Source: Planctomycetota bacterium (lineage in GTDB: Bacteria > Planctomycetota > UBA1135 > UBA2386). From it: 64,000 nt of DNA. Positions 15,177-23,960 of this stretch are shown here, piece after piece. A program made the position numbers and the translations under genes. The stretch is from positions 62,001-126,000 of the forward strand of contig JAHBXX010000004.1 in assembly GCA_019636245.1 (NCBI GenBank), read 5' to 3'. The number at the start of each line of letters is the position of its first letter. Position 1 is the first letter of the stretch. The notes beneath the pieces are model-generated. The model did not search any database, was not told the DNA's origin, and saw only the letters and a program-made list of their open reading frames with translations.

Positions 15177-16973
15177 ATGTCCGAGCGCGGGCGGACGGCG
15201 GCGACGGGCGTCCTGGCGTCGCGCATCGGCCGACGGCTGGTGGCGCTGTTCCTCGGCTGCGCGCTGCTGCCGTTGGTGGGTTTCGCCTTCGTGACGCTGT
15301 CCCGCGTCACCGAGCAGATGAACGCCGACCTGCGCGAGGCCCTGCACAATGGCGCCAAGACCTCGGGCATGGGCCTCGCGGCGCGCCTCGCCCAGGTCGC
15401 CGCGGACCTGAACCTGGTGGCGGAACTCGTGGAGCAGGCGGAGCGCGGGCCGGAGGCCGGGCGCCTGCCGGATCTGCACGAGCAGGTCGCCAGCCGCTGC
15501 TCGGCGCTGTGGCTCGCCGAGGGCGAAGCGACGCAGATGCTGCGCGGCGATGCATCGGTGCCCGTTCCGCTGCTGGACGAGATCGACCGCGCCCACCTTG
15601 CCGCCGGCAAGGCGCTGGTCAGGATCGCCGGATCGACGCCCCAGCTGGTGATGCTGCGCGCCATCGGCGAGGTCGCTGCCGGCAGGCTCCTGGTGGCGGA
15701 GCTGCGCGACGACCGCTTCTGGGATGCGCAGGAACTGCGCAGTCCGGGCGCCCAGTTCGCCGTGCTGGACACCAGTGGTCGGGTGCTGCACCACTCGTTC
15801 GAGCATCTGCCGCACCTGACGCCGCTGTTGGCCACGCTGGCCAGGCAGCCCTCGTCGGGCACCTTCGAGTGGCAGGCCGACGGGGAACCGCACCTGGCGC
15901 GCTACTGGCGCGCCTTCCTGCGCCCCCAGTACGCGATGGACCTCCTGGTCGTCCAGTCGCGGCCGTTGCGCGAGGCCTCCGGGATGGTCGATGGCTTCGT
16001 GCGCTGGTTCCTGCTCACCGCGGCATGCACCCTGCTCTGCGTGCTGTTCGCCAGCCTCGTGCAGATGCGTCGCACCCTGGGACCGATCCTGTCGCTGACC
16101 GAGGCGACGCGCCGCGTCGCGCGTGGTGAACTGGACGTGCGCGTGTCGATCCGGAGCCGGGACGAGTTCGGCGAACTGGGCAAGGCGTTCAACCACATGA
16201 CGGCGCAGCTGCAGGAGAGCCTGCGGCGCCGCGAGCAGACCGAACGCGAGCTGGTGGCATCGCGCGACGCCGCCCTGGCCGCGGCGCGAGCGAAGGCCGA
16301 GTTCGTCACCAACGTCTCGCACGAGTTCCGAACCCCGATGGCGCAGATCCAGGGCGCGACGGAGATCCTGGTGCAGATGCGGGAGCCCGACCTCGAGGTG
16401 CTGCAGGAGTTCGCGGCGATCGCCGACCACGGCGCCCAGCGCCTCGCGCGGCTCGTCGACGACGTGCTGCAGCTGGGTTCGACCGCGGCCTGGGACGTCG
16501 AGCCCACCGACGTGGCGGCCACGCTCCGGACGGCCATCCAGTCGCTGCCGGCCGCGGTGCAGCTGCGGGTCCGTTGCCAGTGCGCCGCCGACCTGCCACC
16601 GGTCGCGGCGGTGCCGCATCGCCTGCGGGACGTCTGGGAGCGCCTGCTCGACAATGCGCGGAAGTTCAGCCCGGAGGATGCGCCCATCGACGTGCAGGCG
16701 CGGTGCGTGGGCGGTGAGATCCAGGTCGAGATCTCCGACCAGGGCGTCGGCATCTCGCGCCTCGACCTGCACACGATCTTCGAGCCGTTCCGGCAGGTCG
16801 GCCGCGACCAGTTGACCGACAAGGCGCATGGCACCGGGCTCGGCCTGACGTTGGTGAAGAACACCGTCGAGCGCCTGGGCGGACGGGTCGAGGTGGAGAG
16901 CGAGCTGGGCAACGGCTCGACGTTCCGGGTCGCGCTGCCGTCGGTCGCGGCGGTCCCGGTGCCGCCGGCGTGA
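15177..16973 (+). CDS. sensor histidine kinase
   Basis: 598 residues. TM1 (about 18-40), an extracytoplasmic sensor region of about 230 residues with no recognised fold, TM2 (about 278-300), a HAMP domain (about 300-352), a dimerisation/phosphoacceptor domain with SHEFRTPMAQIQGATEI (His near residue 382), and a HATPase domain with N box LLDNARKFSP, G1 DQGVGIS and G2 GTGLGLTLVKN. All catalytic boxes are intact, so it should autophosphorylate and pass phosphate to a response regulator; none is encoded nearby. It begins one base after the preceding stop codon, so it is probably co-expressed with the HAMP protein and pseudopilin. Its stop abuts the convergent decarboxylase stop with no gap. Confidence 0.92.
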   Translation: MSERGRTAATGVLASRIGRRLVALFLGCALLPLVGFAFVTLSRVTEQMNADLREALHNGAKTSGMGLAARLAQVAADLNLVAELVEQAERGPEAGRLPDLHEQVASRCSALWLAEGEATQMLRGDASVPVPLLDEIDRAHLAAGKALVRIAGSTPQLVMLRAIGEVAAGRLLVAELRDDRFWDAQELRSPGAQFAVLDTSGRVLHHSFEHLPHLTPLLATLARQPSSGTFEWQADGEPHLARYWRAFLRPQYAMDLLVVQSRPLREASGMVDGFVRWFLLTAACTLLCVLFASLVQMRRTLGPILSLTEATRRVARGELDVRVSIRSRDEFGELGKAFNHMTAQLQESLRRREQTERELVASRDAALAAARAKAEFVTNVSHEFRTPMAQIQGATEILVQMREPDLEVLQEFAAIADHGAQRLARLVDDVLQLGSTAAWDVEPTDVAATLRTAIQSLPAAVQLRVRCQCAADLPPVAAVPHRLRDVWERLLDNARKFSPEDAPIDVQARCVGGEIQVEISDQGVGISRLDLHTIFEPFRQVGRDQLTDKAHGTGLGLTLVKNTVERLGGRVEVESELGNGSTFRVALPSVAAVPVPPA

Positions 16974-20817: not shown

Positions 20818-21462
20818 CTACCAGGGGCGGTAGGGGTACGGCAGCCAGCTGCTGACGGTGCGGTAGATCGGCACGAACAGCGTCGGCACCATCGCGTTGG
20901 CGAGCAGGAACCCGGCGATGCCGACGTAGGGCAGCCGTTCGATCTGTTCCATGACCGCCCGCACCGGTCGGCCGAATCCCTTGACGACGCCGGCGCCGTC
21001 GAGCGGCGGCAGCGGCACGAGGTTGAACACGGCCAGCAGCAGGTTCAGGAACAGGAACGTGCCGGCGATGCGGTGCACGGCTTCGGCGGCGCCTGGTTCG
21101 GGGCGGCCGATGATCCAGAGCACGACGAAGGCGATCGCCGCGAGCAGCACGTTCGCGAGCGGGCCGGCGGCCGACATCACCGCGGCCCGGCCAGGGTGGC
21201 GGTAGGCCCACAACGGGTCGATCGGCGTGCTGGCGAAGCCGAAGCACCAGCGGCCACCGTTCAGGTAGAGGCTGAGCAGGGGCAGCAGCACCATGCCGAA
21301 CGGCTCGCGCTGGGCGTGCGGAATCGGGTTCAGGGTGACCTGGCCGCCGAGGTAGGCGGTCGGGTCGCCGCCGAGCTTGGCGAACAGGGCATGCGCGGCT
21401 TCGTGCACGGTGACGCTGACCAGGAACGTGGCGTACCAGAGGAATGCCAGTTCCCAGTTCAC
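20818..21462 (-). CDS. M50/site-2 protease family membrane protein
   Basis: 214 residues with about five membrane helices. The zinc site HEAAH (H20, E21, H24) is in the first helix, and NLVPLPPLDGAGV near residue 165 supplies the third metal ligand (Asp) and the typical NPxPxxPLDG-like loop. It belongs to the short rhomboid-free S2P group (SpoIVFB-/YwhC-like). Such proteases cut substrates within the membrane, but no substrate is suggested. The start overlaps the xseB stop by 4 bp, making it the last gene of the lipB-xseA-xseB operon. Confidence 0.85.
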   Translation of the reverse strand: MNWELAFLWYATFLVSVTVHEAAHALFAKLGGDPTAYLGGQVTLNPIPHAQREPFGMVLLPLLSLYLNGGRWCFGFASTPIDPLWAYRHPGRAAVMSAAGPLANVLLAAIAFVVLWIIGRPEPGAAEAVHRIAGTFLFLNLLLAVFNLVPLPPLDGAGVVKGFGRPVRAVMEQIERLPYVGIAGFLLANAMVPTLFVPIYRTVSSWLPYPYRPW

Positions 21463-21713
21463 GACCCGGCCTCGTCGTCGGTGTCCTGCGGTTCCACCGC
21501 GGCGGCGAGGTCGGCGGCGACCTGCTTCACCTTGGCTTCGGTGGTGGCGAGCTTCTGGCGGCAGATCGCCAGCAGTGCCGCTGCGCGCTCGACCCGCTCG
21601 GACAGCAGGTCGAGGTCGAAGTCGCCGGACTCGATGTCGGCGAGGATTCGTTCGAGTTCGTGGCTGGCGGCGGCGTAGGTCGGCTCGTCGCCCTTCTTCT
21701 TCTTGTCGGTCAT
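21459..21713 (-). CDS. xseB: exodeoxyribonuclease VII small subunit
   Basis: 84 residues, close to the normal 70-85. The helical core TYAAASHELERILADIESGDFDLD is the standard XseB motif in which two helices form a hairpin, followed by LLSERVERAAALLAICRQKL. It binds several copies per XseA to make ExoVII, a processive single-strand-specific nuclease. It overlaps xseA upstream and the protease downstream by 4 bp each. Confidence 0.93.
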   Translation of the reverse strand: MTDKKKKGDEPTYAAASHELERILADIESGDFDLDLLSERVERAAALLAICRQKLATTEAKVKQVAADLAAAVEPQDTDDEAGS

Positions 21714-23341
21714 GGTCGATCCTGGTCTACGCCTTCGATGCGGGCGGCGGCGCGCCCGTCACGGAACTGGATCTGCACCTCGGTCCCGGCGTGCAATCGG
21801 GTTGCCGAAGGCAGGATGCCGCCGTCCCGGCCGCGCACCAGCGTGTAGCCGCGCTCCAGCACGCGCGCCGGATCGAGCAGCCGCAGGCGCGTCCCGCACT
21901 GTTCGAGCCGGGCCCGGGTCCGGTCGAGCTGCCGTTCGACCGCGTGCTTCGTCCGTGTCGCCCGGCCGTGCAGGGCCGCGGCTTCGGCGGCGAACCGCAG
22001 CAGGAGGCGGGAGCTCAGGTCGTGCGCGGTGGTCGCCACCCGCATCCGTTCGAGGTGCAGACGGCGCTCGACGGCTCGCTGCACGGCGCCCGCATGCTCT
22101 CGCAGGCGCACCCGCTCGGCCGCCAGCCGTCGGGTTGCGGCCGCGGCCAGGTTCGTGGCCCGTTCGGCGGTGTCGGCGCGGGCGGCTTCCACCCCCCGAA
22201 CCAAGAGGTCGGCGACGGCCGTGGGCGTCTTCTCCGAGTGGGCGATCGCGTCGAGCACGGTCTGGTCGCGCTGGTGGCCGATGCCGACCACGATCTTGAG
22301 CGGGTGCGTGGCCGCGGCGATGGCCAGGTCGAGGTCGTCGAACCAGGCGAGGTCGGTGCGGGAACCACCCCCGCGCACGATGCACAGCACGTCGAACCGA
22401 CCGGCGCGGTCGGCGAACCAGGCCAGGCCCTGCAGCAGGCTCCGCTTCAGCTCGGTGCCCTGCACGCGGATCGGCACCAGGGTGATCTCGAAGCCGATCC
22501 GCGCCTCCTGCAGGTGGCGCAGGAAGTCGTTCCAGCCATCCGAGTCGGGGCTGGTCAGCACCCCGACGCGCAGCGCCGGGACGGGCAGGCCGCGCGATCG
22601 GTTGCGCTCGGCGAGTCCACGTTGCCCGATCTCGGCGAGGATCTGCTCCCGCGAGAGAGCCAGCTTGCCGAGCGTGAAGGTCGGATCGACGTCCTCGACG
22701 ACGACCTGGTAGCGGCCGCTGCCGACGTAGAGATCGACCCGGACGAGGGCCCGGATCTCGATGCCGTCACGCAGCGTCAGCGGGCTGTCGCCCCGGGCCA
22801 GGCGCGGCAACAGGGTCGCGGCGGTGCGACCGAACAGGGCGACCTCGACGACGGCGACAGCGCGCGCCTGCTGCGGCGACTTCTCGACCAGCTGGAAGAA
22901 GCGGTGTTCCCGACCGGACGACTTGTCGAAGTCGAGCACCTCGCCGACGACCCACACGGCGCTGGGGAAGGAGGACCGCAGGCAGTCCCGCACGCGGCTG
23001 TTGAGGGCCGAGATGGTCATCGCCGCCGCCGCGGCCGGCGTGGACTCGGGGGCTGGTTGCGGCGTTGCCGGGGGATCCGGCATCCCATCTGCGCCGGCGG
23101 TGGCGGGCCGGCCCAGGGTGCCGGCGAGCAGCGCGGGGATCTCCGGCGCGAAGTCGAACAGATGCCGGGACAGCTGCTGGAACACGCGTTCGACCTGCGA
23201 ACTCGGCACGCGCCAGACCTTGCCCTTGGGATCCCAGCGACGGCCCGGCAGCTCCTTGACCAGGGCGACGAGATCCTCCCGGTAGGGGAAGCGGATCAGG
23301 AGGTTGGCCCCGTCGGCATCGAGTTCCACGCTGCCCGTCAT
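21710..23341 (-). CDS. xseA: exodeoxyribonuclease VII large subunit with N-terminal HARP-like domain
   Basis: 543 residues, about 100 longer than usual. From residue 108 (MTISALNSRVRDCLRSSFPS) it is a normal XseA: OB fold with AVWVVGEV, catalytic region with GVLTSPDSDGWNDFLRHL, IVRGGGSRTDLAWFDD and VVGIGHQRDQTVLD, then long helices and the C-terminal GYTLVRGRDG. Residues 1-75 form an extra domain whose core FPYREDLVALVKELPGRRWD and KVWRVP resemble the HARP domain of SMARCAL1-type annealing helicases, joined by a Pro/Ala linker (about 78-107). The ATG at 23341 is 10 bp after the lipB stop, so the extension is probably real. It degrades ssDNA from both ends; the extra domain may bind DNA junctions. 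Confidence 0.9.
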   Translation of the reverse strand: MTGSVELDADGANLLIRFPYREDLVALVKELPGRRWDPKGKVWRVPSSQVERVFQQLSRHLFDFAPEIPALLAGTLGRPATAGADGMPDPPATPQPAPESTPAAAAAMTISALNSRVRDCLRSSFPSAVWVVGEVLDFDKSSGREHRFFQLVEKSPQQARAVAVVEVALFGRTAATLLPRLARGDSPLTLRDGIEIRALVRVDLYVGSGRYQVVVEDVDPTFTLGKLALSREQILAEIGQRGLAERNRSRGLPVPALRVGVLTSPDSDGWNDFLRHLQEARIGFEITLVPIRVQGTELKRSLLQGLAWFADRAGRFDVLCIVRGGGSRTDLAWFDDLDLAIAAATHPLKIVVGIGHQRDQTVLDAIAHSEKTPTAVADLLVRGVEAARADTAERATNLAAAATRRLAAERVRLREHAGAVQRAVERRLHLERMRVATTAHDLSSRLLLRFAAEAAALHGRATRTKHAVERQLDRTRARLEQCGTRLRLLDPARVLERGYTLVRGRDGGILPSATRLHAGTEVQIQFRDGRAAARIEGVDQDRP

Positions 23342-23351
23342 CGGCCTGGGT

Positions 23352-23960
23352 TCATAGCGCAGCGGTGGGGACGACGAGCACGGAAACCGCGGCGCGCACG
23401 GCCAGCCTCGCCGCTGCCATGTCGATCGGCCGGCCGGCCGCCGTGCTCAGGTCGGTCATCACCTCCGGGGCGAGGCCGCACGGGCGGACCGCGTGGAATG
23501 GCGCCAGGTCCATGGCGACGTTGATGGCGATGCCGTGCAGGTTGATCCAGTGCCGCACGGCGACGCCGATCGACGCGAACTTGCGTCGGTCGACGAAGAC
23601 GCCGGTGCCGTCGACCGACGGGGTCGCCGACAGCCCGAACGTGCTGGCCACCTCGACGCCGAGGCGCTCGAGGCGACGCAGCCAATCCCGCACGTCGCGG
23701 CGCGGCAGGCGCAGGACCGGGTAGACGACCAACTGGCCGGGCCCGTGGTAGGTGATCCTGCCGCCGCGTTCGACCTCGACCATGCCGGGGCGAAGATCGT
23801 CGGCCGGGGTGGCGCGGCCGGCGGTGAACACGGGATCGTGCTCGACCAGCAGCACCCGGCCTGCGCTCTCGCCGAGGTGCACCTGCCGATGCAGCGCCCG
23901 CATGTGCGCCAGCACCTCGGCGAAGGGGGCGCGGCCGCGGTCCTCGATTTCCGGGAGCAA
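23352..23960 (-). CDS. lipB: lipoate-protein ligase B (octanoyltransferase)
   Basis: 202 residues. It moves octanoyl from acyl carrier protein to lipoyl domains. Seen: VLLVEHDPVFTAGRA, GGRITYHGPGQLVVYPVLRL with the conserved RxTYHGPGQ loop, KFASIGVAVRHWINLHGIAINV with the catalytic Lys, and the acyl-accepting Cys in RPCGL. The only start that keeps the conserved N-terminus is TTG 23960 (LPEIEDRGR); it has no good Shine-Dalgarno. LipA is not in the window. It is head of an operon with xseA, xseB and the M50 protease, a combination that looks like a shared promoter rather than a pathway. Confidence 0.92.
   Translation of the reverse strand: MLPEIEDRGRAPFAEVLAHMRALHRQVHLGESAGRVLLVEHDPVFTAGRATPADDLRPGMVEVERGGRITYHGPGQLVVYPVLRLPRRDVRDWLRRLERLGVEVASTFGLSATPSVDGTGVFVDRRKFASIGVAVRHWINLHGIAINVAMDLAPFHAVRPCGLAPEVMTDLSTAAGRPIDMAAARLAVRAAVSVLVVPTAAL

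Follow-up and report, generated by a model that had tools for sequence, protein, structure and literature searches.

The large subunit of exonuclease VII (ExoVII) encoded in the window, i.e., the whole 64,000-nucleotide stretch of planctomycete DNA analyzed here, begins with 76 residues that are a genuine HARP-fold domain, its fold class being predicted from sequence profiles and structural modeling. This architecture (HARP-XseA) occurs in several families of planctomycetes as well as in a second phylum. By analogy with related domains, we favor, with some reservation, the view that these proteins form a genuine ExoVII subfamily in which the tethered HARP domain docks at single-/double-stranded (ss/ds) DNA junctions or fork-like DNA. 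The cellular role and substrate choice of ExoVII are still only loosely defined, and an ExoVII lineage carrying a putative fork- or junction-recognition domain under selection of catalytic strength would provide a direct handle on the latter. No description of a HARP domain on ExoVII was found in the literature searched, which comprised few subscription papers and no domain-architecture databases.

Gene organization and domain architecture

Table 1. Features of the HARP-XseA locus (positions in the window)
Feature	Coordinates	Strand	Details and basis
xseA, ExoVII large subunit with N-terminal HARP domain	21710..23341	minus	543 aa (stop codon included in the coordinates); ATG at 23341, stop at 21710-21712; ORF, TIGR00237
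HARP-fold domain, residues 1-76 (fold class predicted)	23114..23341	minus	Pfam, 4o66 profile match, AlphaFold2, fold matches, conservation
Pfam PF07443 HARP match, residues 16-57	23171..23296	minus	27.5 bits, N-terminus alone
Pro/Ala-rich flexible linker, residues 77-107	23021..23113	minus	identity 0.17, low pLDDT
OB-fold domain, residues 108-218	22688..23020	minus	PF13742 tRNA_anti_2, 55.5 bits (cut-off 27)
ExoVII catalytic and coiled-coil region, residues 245-533	21743..22609	minus	PF02601, 196.9 bits
xseB, ExoVII small subunit	21459..21713	minus	84 aa; PF02609, 46.8 bits; TIGR01280, 50.1 bits
lipB, octanoyltransferase, upstream of xseA	23352..23960	minus	PF21948, 105.8 bits; TIGR00214, 135 bits
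Gene downstream of xseB	20818..21462	minus	membrane-metalloprotease-like by eye

The gene content is that of an ordinary two-subunit ExoVII, with approximately 107 additional N-terminal residues (Table 1). The initial annotation of this gene had placed the beginning of XseA proper near residue 108, and the standard models agree, the TIGR00237 xseA match (274.4 bits, cut-off 180) covering residues 109-535 and the OB-fold model starting at residue 108. The N-terminal features that it had pointed out, namely a FPYREDLVALVKELPGRRWD...KVWRVP motif followed by a Pro/Ala-rich linker, are likewise present, on the minus strand, which it had left unspecified, and the ATG of xseA indeed stands 10 bp past the end of lipB. 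The stop codon of xseA and the start codon of xseB share four bases (ATGA, 21710-21713), an overlap that suggests translational coupling of both subunits. The gene order lipB-xseA-xseB-(protease-like gene) is found again in most close-relative loci of sufficient length; in a scan of genome contigs, a BLAST match to the xseB of the window was present in 22 of the 27 loci, and a homologue of the downstream protease-like gene occurred on the same contig in 20.

Residues D272, R323, H356, and D359 align with D155, R205, H238, and D241 of the Escherichia coli ExoVII structure (8txr, the title of which names H238A), which we take to be the ExoVII catalytic set, and all four are invariant in the 69 HARP-bearing rows of the tree described below (69/69). 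Judged by sequence, the HARP-type enzyme has retained its catalytic residues as well as its XseB partner. The OB fold, the catalytic domain, the long coiled coil, and the adjacent XseB gene are all shared with E. coli XseA, whereas the HARP domain and the linker are additions, and the core itself lies on a branch apart from canonical XseA. When the model of the whole protein was superimposed on 8txr with VIA (Z 23.0, 289 aligned residues), the deviation was 16.4 Å, which probably reflects flexing between domains.

Identification of the HARP domain

The initial annotation had described the N-terminus as HARP-like and had named an HMM search as a check, and the similarity is upheld by sequence, profile, and predicted fold. 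Residues 1-107 alone match Pfam HARP with an E-value of 2.3e-6 (27.5 bits, cut-off 25), and residues 1-80 reach 28.5 bits, the score falling slightly below the cut-off (24.1 bits) when the full 543-aa protein is used. In the other direction, a profile built from the aligned N-terminal 80 residues of 25 members of the family was searched against 177635 PDB sequences, and the HARP domain of SMARCAL1 (4o66) was the top match (E 1.8e-5), with the second match at 0.93; a single-sequence search gave an E-value of 0.18 against 4o66. Because the Pfam scan and the PDB profile search represent independent directions and agree with each other, chance matching and sequence composition can be rejected as sources of the similarity.

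When the 25 members were scanned singly, all of them matched Pfam HARP at E<=1, 12 matched XPB_DRD (PF18458; best E-value 0.0011, with no row for the N-terminus of the window), and 13 matched DUF5710 (PF18974; best 2e-4, under its cut-off of 26.5 bits). R34 and W43 fall on identical residues of SMARCAL1 HARP when aligned to 4o66. The N-terminus of the window protein has the sequence profile, the predicted fold, and these two positions in common with that domain. Among 80 distinct N-termini, F18, W43, and F62 are invariant (80/80), and R34 is retained in 76.

An AlphaFold2 model computed from the 80-residue alignment has a mean pLDDT of 88.2 and a pTM of 0.74. In a Foldseek search of the PDB with this model, ranks 1-13 were all XPB or 4o66, at E-values of 0.01-0.6 with none below 0.001. 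With VIA-align 2, the highest match of the HARP/DRD class was T4 UvsW (1rif; Z 6.8, 3.0 Å, 70 aligned residues), followed by XPB (6p66; Z 6.7, 3.1 Å, 68 aligned) and, at a lower score, SMARCAL1 HARP (4o66; Z 4.3, 2.2 Å, 50 aligned, 26% identity). Taken alone, these structural matches carry moderate weight, because a Z-score below 8 is middling and some unrelated structures score nearly as well, CASTOR1 being close behind at Z 6.3; in combination, the sequence profiles and the predicted fold make the assignment to the HARP/DRD fold convincing.

Conservation of the extension

In the 25-row alignment, mean pairwise identity (300 pairs for each region) is 0.57 for the HARP domain, 0.53 for the OB fold, 0.66 for the catalytic domain, 0.30 for the coiled coil, and 0.17 for the linker, and it is 0.44 for the C-terminus (253 pairs). 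For 10 pairs drawn from the window gene, L001, L002, L004, and L024, dN/dS (NG86) ranged over 0.11-0.35 for HARP, 0.16-0.35 for the catalytic domain, 0.24-0.50 for the OB fold, and 0.39-2.31 for the linker, rates that are rough because some pairs have high dS and the regions are short. The HARP domain is under purifying selection as strong as that on the active-site domain, while the linker drifts. In the whole-protein model, linker residues 77-102 have pLDDT values below 50.

Distribution in bacteria

In the genome-contig scan, HARP and XseA lie in one ORF in 24 of the 27 loci, the other three being cut by the contig within the gene. Pfam HARP was found in 39 of 61 relatives and XseA in 59 of 61, and among the 30 relative loci listed for the HARP matches, 29 are fused and the remaining one is truncated at a contig end. 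In the window's own family (f1), 31 of 34 genomes have a HARP match; as for the other three, G004 shows no XseA, G024 has only a C-terminal piece, and G028 is contig-cut. The contig of G028 stops (at 16360) roughly 500 bases ahead of the PF02601 match, near residue 78 as estimated by arithmetic, so that the HARP part is missing. Within the same order, families f1, f3, and f6 carry the HARP-XseA fusion, and XseA without HARP was seen in 18 of the best 30 loci listed, all from f2, f4, f5, f7, and f8.

At the level of the phylum, 35 of 392 sampled genomes match HARP at E<=0.01, including 31 strong matches (E<=1e-12). Both domains occur in one ORF in 28 of the 30 loci listed, and with two further loci (L181 and L182) the fusion is confirmed in 30 of the 31 strong genomes, the remaining one (G174) being cut. 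The four weak matches (G412, G087, G114, and G156; E 0.0016-0.0035) were left out of the HARP-XseA count; no XseA was found at the matches of G412, which falls in a carboxypeptidase-like ORF, and G087. The second phylum sampled is that of G430, the source of L025, whose record bears the title Deltaproteobacteria. Here, 30 of 377 genomes match at E<=0.001, with fusion in 26 of the 30 loci; the others are two contig-end pieces (L143 and L147) and two SF2 helicases. These helicases carry Pfam XPB_DRD (55.8 and 40.4 bits, cut-off 26); they are the sole proteins other than XseA in this set of 30 matches and are of a kind expected for a HARP/DRD-class domain. The extension, for which a scan of XseA proteins had been proposed, therefore defines an entire subfamily across both phyla covered by the family and phylum surveys, rather than a one-off fusion.

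HARP is not a general feature of XseA, because none of 14 named control genomes has HARP above the cut-off and 10 of them have XseA. A third phylum, entered via L027, gave no match in a sample of two genomes, too small to inform, and one scan of viral contigs yielded a single XseA (L180), matched from residue 107 on, with no Pfam HARP in the matched stretch. In addition, one genome (G217) contains a separate HARP-like ORF of 118 aa from stop to stop (L085, G217:C20:37901-38116) that is unfused to XseA and is possibly a free-standing HARP protein, and the same genome encodes the fused HARP-XseA L181 on another contig.

Two branches of XseA

For phylogenetic analysis, 141 XseA sequences whose cores span 330 residues or more were thinned at 80% identity to 104, the HARP columns were removed, and a tree was built by a quick IQ-TREE search without bootstrap. 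The tree splits, with an SH-aLRT value of 100, into 28 canonical and 76 HARP-type cores, and each branch mixes both phyla, canonical rows standing on one side and HARP-type rows on the other; the HARP-less XseA of other families in the same order form a separate branch. A split with both phyla on each side indicates that the HARP-type enzyme is an old separate lineage and does not result from repeated local gains, and the lineage was possibly spread by transfer. The core columns that distinguish the branches include five (canonical to HARP-type: 223 G to T, 268 A to D, 335 N to D, 349 P to K, and 369 R to S), which means that conserved core positions changed along with the added domain.

A clear HARP domain is present in 69 of the 76 HARP-type rows and is weak or missing in seven. 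One of the latter (L021) is cut by the contig, two (L175 and L177) have only a HARP/DUF5710-like domain, and four (L170, L171, L173, and L179) have no recognizable HARP, L171 having been assessed by eye and by profile search only; loss or strong divergence of the domain therefore occurs. The N-termini of L175-L178 align with the HARP set (hhalign E 3.2e-8, probability 93.6, with little diversity in the query alignment). In Pfam, the L175 N-terminus matches DUF5710 best, at 24.2 bits below the cut-off of 26.5. These N-terminal 80 residues hint that DUF5710, HARP, and XPB_DRD may constitute one superfamily. The N-termini of L170, L173, and L179 gave no alignment with the HARP set. Together with L171, these proteins carry on their HARP-type core an N-terminal extension of approximately 100-200 residues that was unmatched by searches; it would be a HARP that has diverged strongly or else another kind of added domain.

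Proposed role of the HARP domain

SMARCAL1 is reported to bind forks, ss/ds junctions, gaps, and Holliday junctions, and other SNF2 proteins are reported to acquire annealing activity from their fused HARP domains (PMC4035279). Another paper describes UvsW as having one N-terminal HARP domain and classes HARP among junction-specific DNA-binding domains (PMC4666394). SMARCAL1 carries its HARP on an SNF2 ATPase, unlike the window protein, where a single copy sits on a bacterial nuclease. Similarly, the N-terminal domain of T4 UvsW and the DRD of XPB are the top structural matches, but each precedes a helicase motor. In XPB-Bax1, according to PDB titles, a DRD helicase works with a separate nuclease, whereas HARP-XseA has domain and nuclease in one chain. 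A Pfam scan of all 543 aa revealed no helicase domain. An annealing-helicase function is ruled out by the absence of an SNF2/SF2 ATPase motor, and because there is no motor, DNA remodeling, annealing, or fork regression is not expected.

The existence of a conserved fusion branch in two phyla makes it probable that HARP directs the nuclease toward DNA resembling a fork. In the mechanism we propose, the HARP domain would act as a motorless recognition module that binds an ss/ds junction or fork-like DNA. The leash of approximately 31 residues would place it just ahead of the ssDNA-binding OB fold, and the docked domain would hold the XseA-XseB nuclease beside the single-stranded arm, where the OB fold and the active site could trim flaps, gaps, or blocked ends up to the duplex. 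The chances seem about even that HARP-XseA is a distinct, structure-selective ExoVII that replaces the ordinary enzyme in the second phylum and in several families of planctomycetes, the HARP domain and the altered core together making a junction-guided, motorless nuclease. If true, HARP-XseA would be a covalent counterpart to the fork-recognition domains otherwise found on annealing helicases. HARP-class domains do occur outside motor proteins, which implies that HARP could serve as a portable reader of junctions.

Several points weigh against docking at junctions. The net charge of the HARP part lies between -2 and +4, mostly -1 to 0, in the 25 rows, and with a value near zero the domain is not obviously a basic DNA binder. 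The fold scores are middling, the HARP of SMARCAL1 and UvsW acts beside an ATPase motor that HARP-XseA lacks, and seven rows within the HARP-type branch are weak.

The same near-zero charge would suit a domain that makes protein contacts or serves in assembly, for instance with SSB, with a helicase, or by packing within the ExoVII complex, instead of binding DNA; such a role would also fit a domain leashed to a multisubunit enzyme, and the invariant F18, W43, and F62 may be fold core only. We regard this as improbable but worth retaining, since the nearest solved relatives are DNA-recognition domains and the conserved R34 and W43 are common to SMARCAL1 HARP.

A further alternative holds that HARP is a gate over the OB fold or the active site until a DNA end or junction binds, thereby curbing indiscriminate digestion of ssDNA. 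Its tethering directly before the OB fold by the linker of approximately 31 residues would allow this, and the departures of the HARP-type core at the five columns given above can be read as the core and the HARP domain having diverged together. The linker is disordered and hypervariable, however, and no docked HARP interface is predicted with confidence in the whole-protein model (pTM 0.51), which makes gating quite unlikely in our judgment.

It is scarcely credible that the true start lies near residue 108 and that the upstream frame is fortuitous or a separate product, as might be supposed from the XseA of other families of the order, which begins near the OB fold, because the identity (57% on average over 300 pairs) and dN/dS of residues 1-76 rule out a mis-called start codon and the extension itself is matched by standard HMMs. 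Of the 25 aligned members, 22 have ATG at the position of Met1 and three (L022, L023, and L025) have GTG or TTG there, and many members have no start codon at all between the preceding stop and Met1. The initial annotation had envisaged close relatives that start at residue 108 with an unconserved upstream region; instead, the extension is kept and conserved, and in the window's own family it is present in all genes with an intact 5' end.
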